A stretch of DNA of 52,228 nucleotides, taken from assembly GCA_030039795.1 (NCBI GenBank), contig JASHUU010000063.1:1-52228 (forward strand), read 5' to 3'. The notes below the pieces were generated by a model, which saw only the letters and a program-made list of their open reading frames with translations, made no database searches and was not told the origin of the DNA. The stretch's first letter is position 1, and every line of letters begins with the position of its first letter. The DNA comes from Nitrososphaerales archaeon. Its GTDB lineage: Archaea > Thermoproteota > Nitrososphaeria > Nitrososphaerales > Gagatemarchaeaceae. Position numbers and translations under genes: made by a program. This document shows, piece after piece, positions 1 through 6,358 of the stretch.

Positions 1-896
1 GCCATCACGGGGATATACGGCTCAAGGCGATTCCAGATAGCGTCAACGCCATACCAGTAGTCGTCAACCTTCCTGAGAATCCCTTGCCTTCCGAGTTCGT
101 CGAAGATTAGGGGCAACCGAAGGTCTGAGTAGGTTCTGCTATACCACTTGTGATAGAGCGCTATCAGCGATTCTTCCCTGCGGTAGAGCATCCTTCCGGC
201 TTGGACTGACGGGGCATAGTAGCAAGTGGCCGCGTGTAGGTATGTCTCGAAGCGCCATACCTTGAACACTTGGCGGATGGTGGTGTAGTAGTTCTTCATG
301 ATGTAGGCCACCGTATGGTTGATGAACGCGTCAGGCCCGGTCGGAAGGGCTTCCTGCTCAAGCGAAGTGAACAGCGTGGAGTATGTGAACCCGGATTCCG
401 TGGGCTTGAACAGTTTGATGTCAACCAAGAACTGAGCCCACCTTTCCGCGATGTTGGCACGCTTGAGTTCTTCCCGTGTGACTTCATGCTTCCCCTTGCG
501 AGCAAGGGTTCTAAGCAAGAGAGTAATCGGCGAAATTGCTTCCTTGAGAACTTGGAGGCTCGCCAATTCCTCAGCCGAGGACTCAAGGACGATTTCTTGT
601 GCTCTCTCTTGCCACTGCCGAAGCCGGGACTCCAGATGTTGGATTAGTTCGGCTCTCGGCGTTGCCTTAAGCTGGTTGTCATCGGTCAAGATGATTTCGC
701 CGAGTTCTCTTAGCTCAAGGAACTTGATGAACGACTCGTGGTTAGAGTCGTCGTGAATCCTGCGGGGATAGTCAGACCAAAGCTCCGCTGTCCACACACG
801 GTTTGCTATGTCGTGGATTGGCTCGGTGACGGTGATTGCGTCCCCGTAGTTCCGATTAGCATACCGTCTAATCGCTCTCACGGGTTCGCTCATCAT
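1..896 (-). CDS. Unknown protein, C-terminus cut by window edge
   Basis: Translating the minus strand from the ATG at 896 gives an uninterrupted frame to base 1 (298 complete codons, no stop), so this is a real partial gene. I do not recognise the family. The N-terminal 100 residues are charged. Residues about 60-115 look helical and are followed by a stretch resembling a small helix-turn-helix (around VTREELKRANIAERWAQF). The visible C-terminal part is rich in Tyr and Trp. The start overlaps the stop of the upstream peptidase gene (ATGATGA, 893-896), so the two are very probably translationally coupled and functionally linked. Codon choice (CTT, TCT, AGA, GAA) is less GC-biased than in the replication genes to the right, which suggests transfer or an accessory island. 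The function is unknown and I infer none beyond the pairing. Confidence 0.8.
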   Translation of the reverse strand, partial: MMSEPVRAIRRYANRNYGDAITVTEPIHDIANRVWTAELWSDYPRRIHDDSNHESFIKFLELRELGEIILTDDNQLKATPRAELIQHLESRLRQWQERAQEIVLESSAEELASLQVLKEAISPITLLLRTLARKGKHEVTREELKRANIAERWAQFLVDIKLFKPTESGFTYSTLFTSLEQEALPTGPDAFINHTVAYIMKNYYTTIRQVFKVWRFETYLHAATCYYAPSVQAGRMLYRREESLIALYHKWYSRTYSDLRLPLIFDELGRQGILRKVDDYWYGVDAIWNRLEPYIPVM

Positions 897-1483
897 GAGT
901 CCTCAAGCCTCCTTTGTGATGCTCTTAACCTAACGTGGGCCCGAATAAGGATTCTGTCGCCCGTCCTCCACGCATTCATGAAATCCTCCACGGTCTGTTC
1001 TCCGGGTTCGTCAGGGTCGGGGTCATTGACATAAACCCGCAAGTCAACGGTAGTCGCACCTTTCACTACTATTACGTGATGCAGAGGGGACGCGCGGTTC
1101 TGCTTGATCCAGACGATTACAGGGTTCGTATTGGTGAGTTCGGCCTCTATGTCGGAGAACTCTGCGTAGTCTTCCCATTCAAAGACCAATTCGTGCTGTT
1201 CTCCTCTCAGGTATTGGTTGATGCCGATGACTCCCTCCAAGGGCGTTCCTTCCTTCTCATAGCCTATCGCCCTCTTGATTATCTCGACATCAGGGTTAGG
1301 CAAGTCCGGATACTTCCTGTGGTAGAACTCGACTATCATCTTGATGCACGCCCAGACGCATCCTGTGTCGTCATCGCCTTGGCTGACGTATGGAACGTCG
1401 ATCCCCGGCAATCCGCACGACGCGCCAACCCGGTTGTTATATCCGTTGAGCTTCGTCTCATGCTGTCGTGCCCCGAGTTGCAC
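893..1483 (-). CDS. C39-like (papain-fold) cysteine peptidase domain protein
   Basis: 196 residues. The segment VPYVSQ...DTGCVWACIKMIVEFYH aligns with the C39 peptidase active-site region (Q, then C followed by a helix). The later LHHVIVVKG and VYVNDPDPDEP match the His and Asp parts of the fold, so Cys, His and Asp are all present. Such domains cleave leader peptides or act as stand-alone proteases. Here there is no ABC transporter, no double-Gly substrate and no signal peptide, so the substrate is unknown. The ATG at 1483 is the first start. The gene ends in a 4-nt overlap with the unknown gene at 896. Base composition is lower in GC than the neighbours to the right. It could also be an inactive or transglutaminase-like relative, but the intact triad favours an enzyme. 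Confidence 0.75.
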   Translation of the reverse strand: MQLGARQHETKLNGYNNRVGASCGLPGIDVPYVSQGDDDTGCVWACIKMIVEFYHRKYPDLPNPDVEIIKRAIGYEKEGTPLEGVIGINQYLRGEQHELVFEWEDYAEFSDIEAELTNTNPVIVWIKQNRASPLHHVIVVKGATTVDLRVYVNDPDPDEPGEQTVEDFMNAWRTGDRILIRAHVRLRASQRRLEDS

Positions 1484-1557
1484 CGGGAGAACTCAATGCC
1501 CCGACTCCGCACCAGCACTGGGGCGGGCGCGAGAGGGCGGCCCAGATCGCTCGAAAC

Positions 1558-1566
1558 CTTATTATC
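1558..1566 (+). promoter_or_regulatory. TATA-like box of the gins23-mcm-hel308 operon
   Basis: CTTATTATC centred about 28 nt before the in-frame TTG at 1591, the spacing expected for a leaderless archaeal transcript. It is the only AT-rich element in the intergenic stretch. Confidence 0.5.
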
Positions 1567-1590: not shown

Positions 1591-2154
1591 TTGTCCCAGC
1601 CGCCCGGCTCGACCGCAGAAATAATCTCCCGCAGGGAGAGGGACTACCTGCTCGCGAAGACGAAGGTGAAGATGAGGACGTCGCTCGAGAACATAGAGCT
1701 CGGCGACTACAGCATAGCCAGTTTCAACGAGGGACAGGTGGTGGAGGTCCCGAGGTGGATAGGCGAAGAGCTTGTCGCGCTGAAGCTCGCCGAGCCGCAG
1801 GAGGAGCAGTTCGAGGGCGAGGTGTACAGGGCGCTGAGCAGGGAGAAGATGATGGGGCCGCTGCAGCTCCCGCCTCTGCCCGGGGAGTTCTACATGAGGA
1901 TGAGGCGGAGGCTCTCCGTCCTCGAGTCTGAGGTGTCGGGAGGGGCGGTGAAGAGGGAGGACCTCGACAGGCTCAGGTCCAGCTGCTACGACCTTGTAGG
2001 CATGAGGCTGAGCAAGCTCCTCTCGCTCTCCAGCTCTTCTTCGCCGTCGGATGCGCTGTCGGACAAGCTCACCCCGGAGGAGGCCGCCTTCTTCTCGCTC
2101 TCCCAGTCACTCTCTCGCGAGTGGAAGGACGCGCTCCTAGGGGCGGGCAAGTAA
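1591..2154 (+). CDS. gins23: GINS complex subunit Gins23
   Basis: The GINS complex joins MCM and Cdc45/RecJ in the archaeal replicative helicase. The order here is a small beta-rich domain first (residues about 23-60, including GDYSIASFNEGQVVEVPRWI) and then a helical A domain. That is the B-A order of Gins23; Gins51 has the reverse. It ends 1 nt before mcm, the classic gins23-mcm pairing of Crenarchaeota and relatives. I chose the TTG at 1591 because it lies at leaderless distance from the TATA-like box at 1558. The GTG at 1666 and ATG at 1672 are alternatives and would shorten the N-terminus. The frame is also open upstream to 1468, but that would place the promoter inside the gene. A Ser-rich linker (SLSSSSSPSD) lies near the C-terminus. 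Confidence 0.8.
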   Translation: MSQPPGSTAEIISRRERDYLLAKTKVKMRTSLENIELGDYSIASFNEGQVVEVPRWIGEELVALKLAEPQEEQFEGEVYRALSREKMMGPLQLPPLPGEFYMRMRRRLSVLESEVSGGAVKREDLDRLRSSCYDLVGMRLSKLLSLSSSSSPSDALSDKLTPEEAAFFSLSQSLSREWKDALLGAGK

Positions 2155-2155
2155 A

Positions 2156-4201
2156 ATGGCGGCTCTCGCGAGCGGCAAGCTCTCCGACATGCTGGAGGAC
2201 TTCCTGAAGTCCGTGACCGACAGGGCCGGGAACCAGGTGTACCGCGCGAAGATATCCCAGATGATCTCGAGCGAGAGCAAATCCCTCACCGTCGACTTCG
2301 GCGACCTCCTGAAGTACAACAGCGACCTGGCCAGCAAGGTCCTCCTCGAGCCGGACTCTACCCTCGCCTCCTTCAAGGTGGCCGCCTTCGAGACGATGAG
2401 GAGCGAGAACGCGCTCTACGCAGACAGGATCAAGCGAGAGCTCGTCGTGAGGATCAGGGGGATTCCCGACCTGGTGCCCCTGAGGAAGGTGGACACCTCG
2501 TACCTTGACCGGATGCTCGCGGTGTCAGGGATGGTGGTGAGGACCTCGGAGCTGAGGCCGCTCATGACGTCCGCGGCGTGGGTCTGTCCGAGCGGGCACA
2601 CGACGTTCGAGGAGCAGGACGACCTGATGCTGAAGCGCCCGCCCCAGTGCGAAGTCTGCGGGGAGGCGAAGAACTTCGAGCTCGACAGGAAGCACAGCAG
2701 GTTCATCGACTTCCAGATCCTCAGGGTCCAGGAGCTCCCCGAGGAGCTGCCTCCGGGGCAGCTGCCGCAGTTCTTCGACGTCAACTCCGAAGGGGACCTC
2801 GTGAACACGGCGAGGCCGGGGGACAGGGTCGTCCTCAGCGGGATAGTCAGGGCGGTCCCGGACTACACCCTGGGCCAGGTGAGGACCAGGCTATTCAGGT
2901 CGCAGATCGACTGCAACCAAGTCGAGGTGAAGGGGAAGGAGCAGGAGCAGGTCCAGGTGACCAAGGAGGATGAGGCGATGATCAGGAGCATCGCCAAGGG
3001 CCCTGACGCCTACGAGAAGCTCGTCCAGTCGATAGCGCCTGTCATTCTCGGGCACCAGGCCGAAAAGGAGGCGATACTCCTGCTGCTCGCGGGAGGCGGC
3101 GCGACGCTCCTGCCCGACGGGACCAAGCTGAGAGGCGATCTGAATATTTTGTTCGTGGGTGACCCTGGGACCGGGAAATCTGAGATGCTGAAGTTCGCGT
3201 CTCAGGTGGCCACGAGGGGCTTGTACGCCTCCGGCCGGGGGACGACCGCGGCCGGGCTGTCCGCCGCCGTGATCAGGGAGAAGAACGTGCTCATGCTGGA
3301 GGCAGGAGTCGTGGTTTTGGCCGATCTCGGGATCGCCTGTATCGACGAGTTCGAGAAGATGAAGCCGGAGGACAGGACGGCGCTGCATGAGATGATGGAA
3401 CAACAGACAGTGACGATAGCCAAGGGAGGCATCTACGCGACCCTCAACGCAAGGACCGCGATCCTCGCGGCGTGCAACCCCGTACTCGGCAGGTACAACC
3501 CCTTCCAGAACCTGACGGAGAACATAGAGAACCTCCCCATCCCGCTGCTGACGAGGTTCGACCTCATCTTCGTCATCAAGGACCAGCCGACGCCGGCCGA
3601 CGACGAGAAGCTCGCGTCCCACATACTGTCAGTGCACGCGAAGAGGTCGTACATCTCCCCTCCGCCGATCGAGTTCTCCCTCCTGAAGAAGTACATCGCG
3701 TATGCGAAGAGGCTGACGCCCAACCTGACGCCTGAGGCGATGGAGAGGATCAAGGACTACTACATGCAGCTGAGGAGGAGCAGCGCGGAGGGGCAGATCC
3801 CGCCCACGCCCAGGACCCTCGAGGCGCTGATCCGAATCGCAACGGCAAGGGCGAGGGTGGTGCTCAGGGACGAGGTCAAAGAGGAGGACGCGCTGGAGGC
3901 TATAGCCCTGATGAACAAGATGGTCGAGGACGTACTCACGGACGTGGCGACCAAGAAGGCGGACTTCGGGATCCCCCTGGGGAAGCCTGCGGGCGAGACG
4001 AAGAACCTGAGGACGGCGATGGAGGTGTTCAGGGCCCTCGAGGGGCCGGACAAGAAGCCGGTCGAGCGGAGGATCCTGAAGGAGGAGCTGGTGAAGACGA
4101 AGTTCTCTGAAGAAGAAGCGGACAAGATGATCAGGACGATGTTCAGGGAGGGCCTGGTCTACGAGTCGAAGCCCGGGTTCATCCGAAGGCTCGGGAGCTA
4201 G
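2156..4201 (+). CDS. mcm: Replicative DNA helicase MCM
   Basis: 681 residues, the usual length for archaeal MCM, the hexameric helicase that unwinds DNA at the fork. In order: N-terminal A domain, a zinc-binding motif (C144, H148, C165, C168), the OB fold and the AAA+ core. The core shows Walker A GDPGTGKS at about 335-342, Walker B CIDEF at about 395-399 and the arginine finger LLTRFD at about 464-469. A winged-helix tail ends the protein. The Walker B run reads CIDEFEKM where most homologues have CIDEFDKM, a conservative change. It starts at ATG 2156, directly after the gins23 stop and without room for a promoter, so it is co-transcribed. hel308 follows after 15 nt. Confidence 0.97.
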   Translation: MAALASGKLSDMLEDFLKSVTDRAGNQVYRAKISQMISSESKSLTVDFGDLLKYNSDLASKVLLEPDSTLASFKVAAFETMRSENALYADRIKRELVVRIRGIPDLVPLRKVDTSYLDRMLAVSGMVVRTSELRPLMTSAAWVCPSGHTTFEEQDDLMLKRPPQCEVCGEAKNFELDRKHSRFIDFQILRVQELPEELPPGQLPQFFDVNSEGDLVNTARPGDRVVLSGIVRAVPDYTLGQVRTRLFRSQIDCNQVEVKGKEQEQVQVTKEDEAMIRSIAKGPDAYEKLVQSIAPVILGHQAEKEAILLLLAGGGATLLPDGTKLRGDLNILFVGDPGTGKSEMLKFASQVATRGLYASGRGTTAAGLSAAVIREKNVLMLEAGVVVLADLGIACIDEFEKMKPEDRTALHEMMEQQTVTIAKGGIYATLNARTAILAACNPVLGRYNPFQNLTENIENLPIPLLTRFDLIFVIKDQPTPADDEKLASHILSVHAKRSYISPPPIEFSLLKKYIAYAKRLTPNLTPEAMERIKDYYMQLRRSSAEGQIPPTPRTLEALIRIATARARVVLRDEVKEEDALEAIALMNKMVEDVLTDVATKKADFGIPLGKPAGETKNLRTAMEVFRALEGPDKKPVERRILKEELVKTKFSEEEADKMIRTMFREGLVYESKPGFIRRLGS

Positions 4202-4216: not shown

Positions 4217-6358
4217 TTGAAGATCGAGGAAGCCGGCCTGGCGCAGGAGCTCTGCGACTTCATCAGGGAGAAGGGCATAGTCGAGCTCTACCCTCCTCAG
4301 GAGGCCGCGGTGAAGGCCGGGCTGCTGGAGGGGAAGAGCCTGGTGGTCTCGAGCCCCACCGCGTCCGGGAAGACGTTGATCGCCATGGTCGCGGCGTACG
4401 CGAAGGCGAAGGCGGGGCGGAAGGTGGTGTACCTGGCGCCTCTCAGGGCGCTCGCGTCGGAGAAGTACGGCGAGTTCTCGGAGCTCGCTCGCTTCGGGAT
4501 CAGGACGGCGATCTCGACGGGCGACTACGACTCGAGCGGGGAGTCGCTCGGGAAGGCCGACGTGATCGTGCTCACGAACGAGAGGTTCGACTCCATCATG
4601 AGGCACAGGGTGGCCTGGATCGAGTCTGTGGGGCTCTTCGTCGCGGACGAGGTCCACCTTGCGGGGAACGACTCGAGGGGGCCGACGCTCGAGATGATGC
4701 TCACGAGGGTCATGCACATGGGGCTGGACGCACAGATCCTCTCGCTCTCGGCCACGATAAGCAACGCCCCGGAGGTGGCCGAGTGGCTCGGGTCGGGCCT
4801 GGTCCAGACGGACTGGAGGCCGGTCCCTCTGAAGGAGGGCGTCTACGACTATGGCAGGGTGATGTTCGACGACGGAGAGGAGAGGAGCATACCGAGGACG
4901 GCCTACGGCCCGCCCGTGGAGGTGGCCATGGACACACTCAGGGAGGGAGGGCAGGCGCTCGTCTTCGCGAACACGAGGAGGAGGGCGGTGAGCCTGGCGA
5001 CGAGGGCGGCGGAGCTGTCGCAGAGGTTCCTGAGCCTGGAGGAGAGGAAGGCCGCCTCGGAGGCCTCGAGGAGGATACTCGCGTCGGGCGAGGAGACGTC
5101 GCTGAGCAGGCTCCTTGCGGAGATAGTCGGCAAAGGCGCGGCGTTCCACCACGCGGGACTGGAGCCGGAGCACAGGAAGATCGTCGAAGACTACTACAGG
5201 GCCCGGGCGATCAAGGTGCTGGCGGCCACGCCCACGCTCGCGCAGGGGGTGAACATACCGGCGAGGAGGGTGGTCATAGCTGACGTCACCAGGTACGACG
5301 CGGAGCAGGGAGGGAACGCCGGGATATCGGTCTTGGAGTACAGGCAGATGGCCGGGAGGGCGGGCAGGCCGCAGTACGACGCGAAGGGCGAGACTGTCAT
5401 CATCCCCCCTCCTTCGCAGCCGGCGTCGGAGCTGCTCGAGCACTACGCGAACCAGCCTCCCGAGCCCATCGAGTCTAGGCTGTCGGGGGAGGGCGCCATG
5501 AGGTTCCACACGCTCGCGACAGTCGCGACTTCGTCCGGCATCTCGAAGGGCGGGATAGACTCGCTCTTCGGGAGGACGCTGCTGGCCAGGAGGACAGGTG
5601 AGGGCGAGATGAGGAAGCTGACAGAAGGGGCGCTGGGATACCTCCTCGGCGAGAGGCTGGTGGAGTCACATGGGGACCTGTTCTACCCGACGGACTTTGG
5701 GAGGCGCGTGTCCATCCTCTACGTGGACCCCGCCACAGGCGTGGCGTTCAGGGAGGCGGTCAGGAAGGCGGAGGAGGGAAGGGACTACACCACGGGGCTG
5801 CTGAGGGTGGTCGCCGAGACGCCGGACTTCGAGCCGAAGTTCCCCCTCAGGTCGAAGGACTACGAGCAGGCGATGGCGTACCTCGAGGAGCACGCGTCCG
5901 AGATGATAAGGCGCCCGACCACGAGGGAGTTCTCCGAGTACGACAGGGTGCTCCAAGGCATGAGGACGGTGATGGCGCTCGGCGGGTGGATCGACGAGTG
6001 GACAGAGGACCAGCTCCTGTCCAGGCTGGGGGTCGAGCCCGGGGACCTCCACAGGGCGGTCGACAACGCGGACTGGCTCCTCCATGCCCTGACGGAGGTG
6101 GCGAGGCTCTTCGCGCGGCAGGACATCGCGGGGCAGGCGGACCTGCTGCGGAGGAGGGTGGAGAGCGGGGTGGGCCGGGAGCTCGTCGAGCTGACCTCGT
6201 TGCAGGGAGTGGGGAGGGTGAGGGCCAGGGCGCTGTACGCGGCAGGGTTCAGGACGCTGGAGGACCTCAAGGAGGCTCCGGCGGACAGGCTCGCGGCCGT
6301 AGGGAAGGTGGGGGCCGCGGTCGCGAGGAGGATCAAGGAGCAGGTCTCTAGGCGTTGA
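4217..6358 (+). CDS. hel308: Ski2-like DNA helicase Hel308
   Basis: 713 residues, typical for Hel308, a 3'-5' superfamily 2 helicase that acts on stalled forks. It shows a Q-like motif (YPPQ, about 25-28), Walker A SSPTASGKT (45-53), the DEVH box (144-147), motif VI around QMAGRAGRP, a winged helix and ratchet region, and a C-terminal helix-hairpin-helix (LQGVGRVRARALYAAG, then GKVGAAVARRI). The start is TTG at 4217, 15 nt after mcm. It ends in a TGATG overlap with the next gene. The arrangement gins23-mcm-hel308 suggests one replication and fork-repair operon. Confidence 0.95.
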   Translation: MKIEEAGLAQELCDFIREKGIVELYPPQEAAVKAGLLEGKSLVVSSPTASGKTLIAMVAAYAKAKAGRKVVYLAPLRALASEKYGEFSELARFGIRTAISTGDYDSSGESLGKADVIVLTNERFDSIMRHRVAWIESVGLFVADEVHLAGNDSRGPTLEMMLTRVMHMGLDAQILSLSATISNAPEVAEWLGSGLVQTDWRPVPLKEGVYDYGRVMFDDGEERSIPRTAYGPPVEVAMDTLREGGQALVFANTRRRAVSLATRAAELSQRFLSLEERKAASEASRRILASGEETSLSRLLAEIVGKGAAFHHAGLEPEHRKIVEDYYRARAIKVLAATPTLAQGVNIPARRVVIADVTRYDAEQGGNAGISVLEYRQMAGRAGRPQYDAKGETVIIPPPSQPASELLEHYANQPPEPIESRLSGEGAMRFHTLATVATSSGISKGGIDSLFGRTLLARRTGEGEMRKLTEGALGYLLGERLVESHGDLFYPTDFGRRVSILYVDPATGVAFREAVRKAEEGRDYTTGLLRVVAETPDFEPKFPLRSKDYEQAMAYLEEHASEMIRRPTTREFSEYDRVLQGMRTVMALGGWIDEWTEDQLLSRLGVEPGDLHRAVDNADWLLHALTEVARLFARQDIAGQADLLRRRVESGVGRELVELTSLQGVGRVRARALYAAGFRTLEDLKEAPADRLAAVGKVGAAVARRIKEQVSRR

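Follow-up and report, generated by a model that had tools for sequence, protein, structure and literature searches.

The archaeal DNA analysed here, a stretch of 52,228 nt (the window), opens contig C92 of a genome (G000) that is 79% complete, and its lower-GC beginning is, by our reading of the sequence, one end of a transposon-like element. This end carries overlapping genes for a C39-like cysteine peptidase and for a partner protein, which together probably constitute an undescribed defence or genetic-conflict module. Three things appear to be new: that the island belongs to a transposon-like element carrying defence cargo, that the pair is conserved across Thermoproteota, and the partner family itself.

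The peptidase gene (893-1411, minus strand) encodes a papain-fold protein of 172 aa from a TTG start codon; its frame ends at 893 and the partner begins with the ATG at 896, giving a 4-nt overlap (ATGA). The first-pass annotation had begun the peptidase at GTG 1483, a position that falls in the terminal repeat described below. TTG 1411 is the more likely start, because a TATA-like box lies ~30 nt upstream of it both in the window (GGATATAAC, 1436-1444, minus strand) and in the closest relative (L064), where the box is identical and equally far from the start codon, and because the extra 24 residues of the listed open reading frame are unconserved: they fall outside the part that is conserved, some of them within the terminal repeat. 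The peptidase of L064 begins LPDIDVP at its TTG.

In Pfam searches the peptidase matches Peptidase_C39_2 (E 3e-10, 41.3 bits against a curated cut-off of 24; E 2e-10 for the TTG-start form) as well as Peptidase_C39 and Peptidase_C70 (AvrRpt2), and 10 of the 16 peptidase members match the Peptidase_C39_2 profile. Profile comparison identified a solved relative, the putative C39-like peptidase 3erv (E 4.9e-7), with the peptidase domains of PCAT and ComA also among the matches. The catalytic residues are Cys18, His112 and Asp130, numbered from the TTG start. That these three are intact had been claimed from the window alone, and the homologues agree: the Cys and His are present in 16/16 and the Asp in 15/16 (Asn in L061), one Trp is likewise invariant across the aligned peptidases, and the catalytic residues are kept down to ~16% identity. 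The enzyme is predicted from these sequences to be active. The missing ABC transporter and peptide substrate, also remarked on earlier, are equally a feature of the relatives, as neither a transporter nor a recurring small substrate gene occurs in the pair operons examined; with no transporter and no peptide, a bacteriocin-type C39 system was rejected. We likewise rejected the idea that the peptidase is a fragment of a larger known enzyme, since its relatives are free-standing proteins of consistently 170-240 aa.

The partner gene (3-896, minus strand) encodes at least 298 aa and is cut by the contig start; if contig C96 of the same genome abuts, about 12 residues are missing. The family has 18 members, typically of ~310 aa with an extra N-terminal domain. 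The first-pass annotation could not place the partner, and searches of Pfam, NCBIfam, PADLOC and PHROGs returned no significant match; we take it, on sequence grounds, to be a new family. Sequence searches of phage, plasmid and IMG/VR collections found no relatives of the partner, and the PADLOC 2023 models match neither gene of the pair up to E 10. Over one stretch, the profile built from the 18 members has a match to the Sso10a winged helix at E 0.004. AlphaFold2 was run twice on the partner with four sequences each, yielding mean pLDDT values of 60 and 69, the latter for the Bathyarchaeota partner, whose residues 131-200 score ~79-89. This Bathyarchaeota model displays winged-helix-type helix-hairpin patterns at ~141-188 and ~245-304 and an N-terminal helix with strands. 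Foldseek searches with the partner models returned mostly winged-helix proteins, none below E 0.001. Because the Sso10a match, the predicted patterns and the Foldseek results all point to winged helices, two such domains in the partner are probable, though not established.

The pair is sporadically distributed. Profile searches detected the partner in 5/200 and 10/400 sampled genomes of the window's class, in 12/257 genomes of the class with Bathyarchaeota members, in 1/40 of the class of a Methanomethylicus and in 9/398 across a sample of the phylum, a few fragments being included in these counts. Named members come from a Bathyarchaeota MAG, Ca. Methanomethylicus oleisabuli and archaeon YF1.bin89, and it is from such names that we read the phylum as Thermoproteota. 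A pattern scan of genome contigs of all species returned only three loci, all archaeal; such patterns reach close relatives only, and alignment A5 is too divergent for pattern scans. Two partner fragments (G652/L063 and G031/L068) were judged to be chance matches.

The profile searches left 18 non-redundant loci in Thermoproteota with a full-length partner. An open C39-like gene lies directly upstream on the same strand in 16 of them, with gaps of -14 to +21 nt, and in the other two the partner frame is open while the peptidase is interrupted by one stop (L021) or absent (L019). The coupled pair proposed by the first-pass annotation thus holds up beyond the two minus-strand frames and 4-nt overlap seen in the window, and its partner is not found mainly away from the peptidase. 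When 22 genomes were searched in reverse, with the peptidase profile as query, all strong hits lay beside partners; two weak hits lay elsewhere. Distances between peptidases are closely correlated with those between partners (Mantel r 0.90, p 5e-5). For L059 and L060, the sole pair of loci with unsaturated distances, both genes display purifying selection, with dN 0.10 and dS 0.49 for the partner (ratio about 0.21) and dN 0.14 and dS 0.54 for the peptidase (ratio about 0.27). From the adjacency, the conserved residues, the correlated distances and the purifying selection, we infer that peptidase and partner are inherited as a unit and maintained. Most of the loci are AT-richer than their surroundings, the GC of the pair being below that of its flanks in 17/18 loci (Wilcoxon p 1.5e-5). 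A 74-aa partner remnant in G004 (L067 9002-9226) lies near transaldolase-like neighbours that flank an intact pair in L020/G020, which suggests decay or loss at a shared site.

In the window, GC is 0.53 over positions 1-1411 and 0.63 beyond position 5000, and the lower-GC island noted earlier can now be given a boundary and a partner end. It stops at 1519 with the right terminal inverted repeat (1466-1519), which is identical at 44 of 54 positions to the inverse of C96 9253-9306 (E 7e-11), and is followed at 1520-1527 by an 8-bp target-site duplication (GGGGCGGG) that is the same as C96 9245-9252, outside the left terminal repeat. Beyond this lies the flank, with a TATA-like element of the GINS51-MCM operon (CTTATTATCG, 1557-1566, plus strand), variants of which are found in relatives lacking the pair, and the GINS51 and MCM genes themselves (1630-4201, plus strand), homologous in most genomes of the same genus from 1587-1630 onwards. 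The MCM gene of the window (2156-4201) is uninterrupted; in several relatives of the same genus it is split by insertions of 1.1-1.6 kb, probably inteins, at three different sites (after about window positions 3168, 3343 and 3405).

Relatives without the pair from the same genus (L082, L087 and L089) have HisS and RfcS on the minus strand facing GINS51-MCM on the plus strand. Searching with the flank of a relative retrieved C96 from the window's genome, on which HisS-RfcS is followed by a drop in GC from ~0.65 to ~0.56 and then by two more minus-strand genes. When the outer flanks on C96 and in the window are joined, they align continuously to L085, an empty site (RfcS|GINS), and this places the insertion point in the promoter region of the GINS51-MCM operon. 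The ends of C96 and C92 seem to abut, a join we propose because of reading frame and spacing: with 0 or 3 nt shared, the start of the methyltransferase gene on C96 overlaps the stop of the partner by 8 nt, and a gap whose length is divisible by three would also be compatible. If they abut, the element would span ~3.47 kb and encode peptidase, partner, methyltransferase and endonuclease, in that order. Neither sequenced part of the element contains a transposase gene, and because none was found between its ends, the element is probably mobilised in trans; it would act as a small mobile defence cassette.

Including that of the window, six pair loci are bounded by inverted repeats, and all six have target duplications. 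The repeats of L021/G199 (76/76 identical), L066/G788 (69/69) and L060/G545 (59/61) come with 8-bp duplications (ATACGGCT, TGATGGAC and TGCCGCGA, respectively), and those of L065/G721 (25/25) and L024/G283 (21/23) with duplications of 6-8 and 7-8 bp, depending on the cut. As a control, 136 positions were searched for inverted repeats: the best had an E of 7e-4, compared with 4e-27, 5e-24 and 7e-19 for the three strongest pair elements. The two short repeats (G721 and G283) are supported mainly by their duplications and GG tips, and an AT-rich inverted repeat at L018 (74%) was not counted as an element end. A 15-bp core of the window's terminal repeat also makes up both ends of the G199 element. 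With at most 1 mismatch, a 16-bp repeat-core pattern occurs on both strands in only G000 and G199 among 46 family genomes, and both times it surrounds the pair, the two partners being only ~16% identical. Single copies of the terminal-repeat sequence were seen in G760 (L103 4736-4811) and G748 (L104 211-259) beside small genes, which encode a 206-aa membrane-like protein and a 155-aa protein; this suggests further kinds of cargo in the element family. Several pair loci yielded neither inverted repeats nor defence genes.

IS240/IS6-type DDE transposase genes are present at six pair loci and at 0/14 control loci; they include L060 8629-9744 and 13840-14961, L064 6759-7856 and L066 7229-8401. Between the element ends, a transposase gene is found in G545, G788 and G721 and a fragment in G283, and none in G000 or in G199, whose element contains only a 72-aa open reading frame besides the pair. 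The L060 and L066 transposases match an N-terminal SWIM zinc finger, L066 below the curated cut-off. A 107-aa open reading frame in the G545 element (L060 8039-8362) resembles by eye a GIY-YIG nuclease.

Known defence-type genes lie within three of the six bounded elements, a number too small to claim enrichment for defence on statistical grounds. In the G000 element, the methyltransferase on C96 matches Pfam N6_N4_Mtase (3.2e-16) and PADLOC MTase_II (1e-19), and the gene next to it matches PADLOC REase_II (2.5e-7); the two stand in tandem, the arrangement expected of a type II restriction-modification (R-M) system, with putative activity. The G788 element encodes an NsnB-like AAA ATPase (1.1e-39), and the G283 element contains a remnant of a type I specificity subunit (4.6e-17). 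Membership in Menshen (NsnABC) was rejected, as the NsnB-like ATPase of G788 is the only component seen. At many pair loci, the neighbours are ordinary genes and no defence gene was detected in the vicinity.

The endonuclease-like gene on C96 (L093 9314-10138) belongs to a family without Pfam match, with 35-48% identity to "hypothetical proteins" of bacterial plasmids and to mycobacteriophage proteins. The plasmid homologues lie beside DNA methyltransferases in 3/3 cases looked at, and a homologue in G133 is split in two pieces; together with the methyltransferase, the family is probably an unannotated type II R-M system. The same tandem occurs without the pair on bacterial plasmids, and R-M genes are also present in phages. 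Because of the plasmid copies, the tandem is best read as a separate module that joined the G000 element, and since R-M genes occur alone in bacteria, we rejected them as an obligate part of the pair module. In the two most divergent pair loci, a third gene of ~200 aa follows the partner (L061 8850-9458 and L066 8600-9178). The two products have only weak N-terminal similarity (E 0.003), that of L061 has a strong hydrophobic helix, and the third gene is a possible effector.

Recurrence of the two families side by side in variable islands, especially close to defence genes, had been named beforehand as the observation that would speak for a new system, and it is what the loci display, with 16 of 18 adjacent, six elements bounded and three of these containing defence-type genes. 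A role in defence or as a toxin-antitoxin system is, all the same, something we infer from gene content and context. We favour defence or abortive infection because of the mobility, the patchiness and the defence company of the pair, and give about an even chance to a protease effector that is controlled by a sensor or regulator partner and used in defence. The partner would bind the peptidase, keeping it inactive or aiming it, and would sense an invader or invader DNA; the released peptidase would then cleave a protein of the host or of the invader. In the window's genome, translation of the pair would precede that of the DNA methyltransferase and restriction endonuclease and apparently be coupled to it. 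The fuller version, quite possible if somewhat short of an even proposition, is an immune or conflict module in which new tandem winged-helix sensors hold and trigger a papain-fold protease effector, spread in Thermoproteota by IS6-like transposons that also gather R-M and other defence genes. L019 and L021 weaken the explanation: a partner whose sole role was to restrain the peptidase would not be expected to outlast it. The R-M genes, moreover, may be chance cargo, since they are found independently of the pair on bacterial plasmids and in phages.

Those same two loci are what an addiction pair might leave behind, with a peptidase toxin lost first and its inhibitor retained, and two tightly coupled genes on mobile DNA would suit a toxin-antitoxin system that maintains the element. 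We nevertheless consider this unlikely, as the partner is multi-domain and larger than the peptidase, the toxin gene would come first, and a second antitoxin-like feature was not seen. Rather unlikely, but a more serious contender, is a control module in which the partner binds DNA and represses the cargo operon or transposase, and is cleaved by the peptidase on a signal. Protease-repressor control pairs of this kind are known, ImmA acting on ImmR and IrrE on DdrO, the proteases being M78 metallopeptidases. The probable winged helix, the association with mobile ends and the position of the pair at the operon start, with its TATA-like box adjoining the terminal repeat, would all fit such control; yet a partner of ~310 aa with an extra N-terminal domain exceeds a typical repressor, the G199 element offers only its 72-aa open reading frame to control, and many pairs have no transposase or other cargo. 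Trimming of leader peptides, as by bacteriocin-type C39 enzymes, is recommended by the fold family and by the PCAT and ComA matches, but seems highly improbable for short free-standing peptidases with a conserved partner of another kind, in operons with neither ABC transporter nor recurring small substrate gene. That the pair are ordinary accessory genes in coincidental company with mobility and defence would agree with the several loci that lack inverted repeats or defence genes; it is very unlikely given that six elements, independent of one another, have both inverted repeats and target duplications, that the two genes show linked evolution and that their GC is the lower one in 17 of 18 loci.

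The preferred reading, a protease effector under a sensing partner, bears on archaeal immunity. Known defence systems besides R-M, CRISPR-Cas and argonautes have been reported at low prevalence in Thermoproteota (PMC12988326), so immunity in this phylum may be partly undescribed, and a protease-based module that recurs, is mobile and keeps company with defence genes would be a direct candidate for it. The pair and the element ends could also be used as a marker for finding more archaeal defence cargo.

Among known systems, the peptidase resembles the papain-fold clan of Peptidase_C39_2, C39 and C70 (AvrRpt2) in scoring above the curated cut-off and keeping Cys, His and Asp, and differs from it in being free-standing and coupled to a dedicated partner, with no transporter or leader-peptide substrate. 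As in ImmA-ImmR and IrrE-DdrO, a protease gene lies beside that of a probable DNA-binding partner on mobile DNA; unlike there, the protease is not an M78 metallopeptidase and the partner is larger and of another family. A search of the open-access literature found no described C39-like defence pair. C39-family peptidases in archaeal islands are also described among the archaeal "dark matter" families (arCOG10864 and others); these are associated with pseudomurein-binding domains or double-glycine peptides, and the present pair was not seen in the passages on them (PMC4158269, PMC6393860).

The IS6 family (IS26/IS240) is described as having 8-bp duplications, GG tips and a cTGTt motif (PMC7986276). 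The pair loci share with it the DDE_Tnp_IS240 transposases, ends resembling GG...cTGTt and 8-bp target duplications in most elements (clear in G000, G199, G545 and G788). They differ in ends of up to 76 bp, compared with 15-20 bp in IS6 (PMC7986276), in the SWIM finger of some transposases, and in the absence of a transposase gene from the window and G199 elements. With no IS6-type transposase between its ends, the window element is accordingly termed IS6-like and non-autonomous and is not counted as a full member of IS6. The review of the family by Varani et al. (2021) lists a single tIS, ISDsp3, with one passenger gene (PMC7986276), whereas the pair elements hold two to several, and would thus represent IS6-like elements with multi-gene passenger sets. 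At L064, two transposase genes in direct orientation, one truncated, enclose the pair, an arrangement like that of IS6 pseudo-compound transposons.
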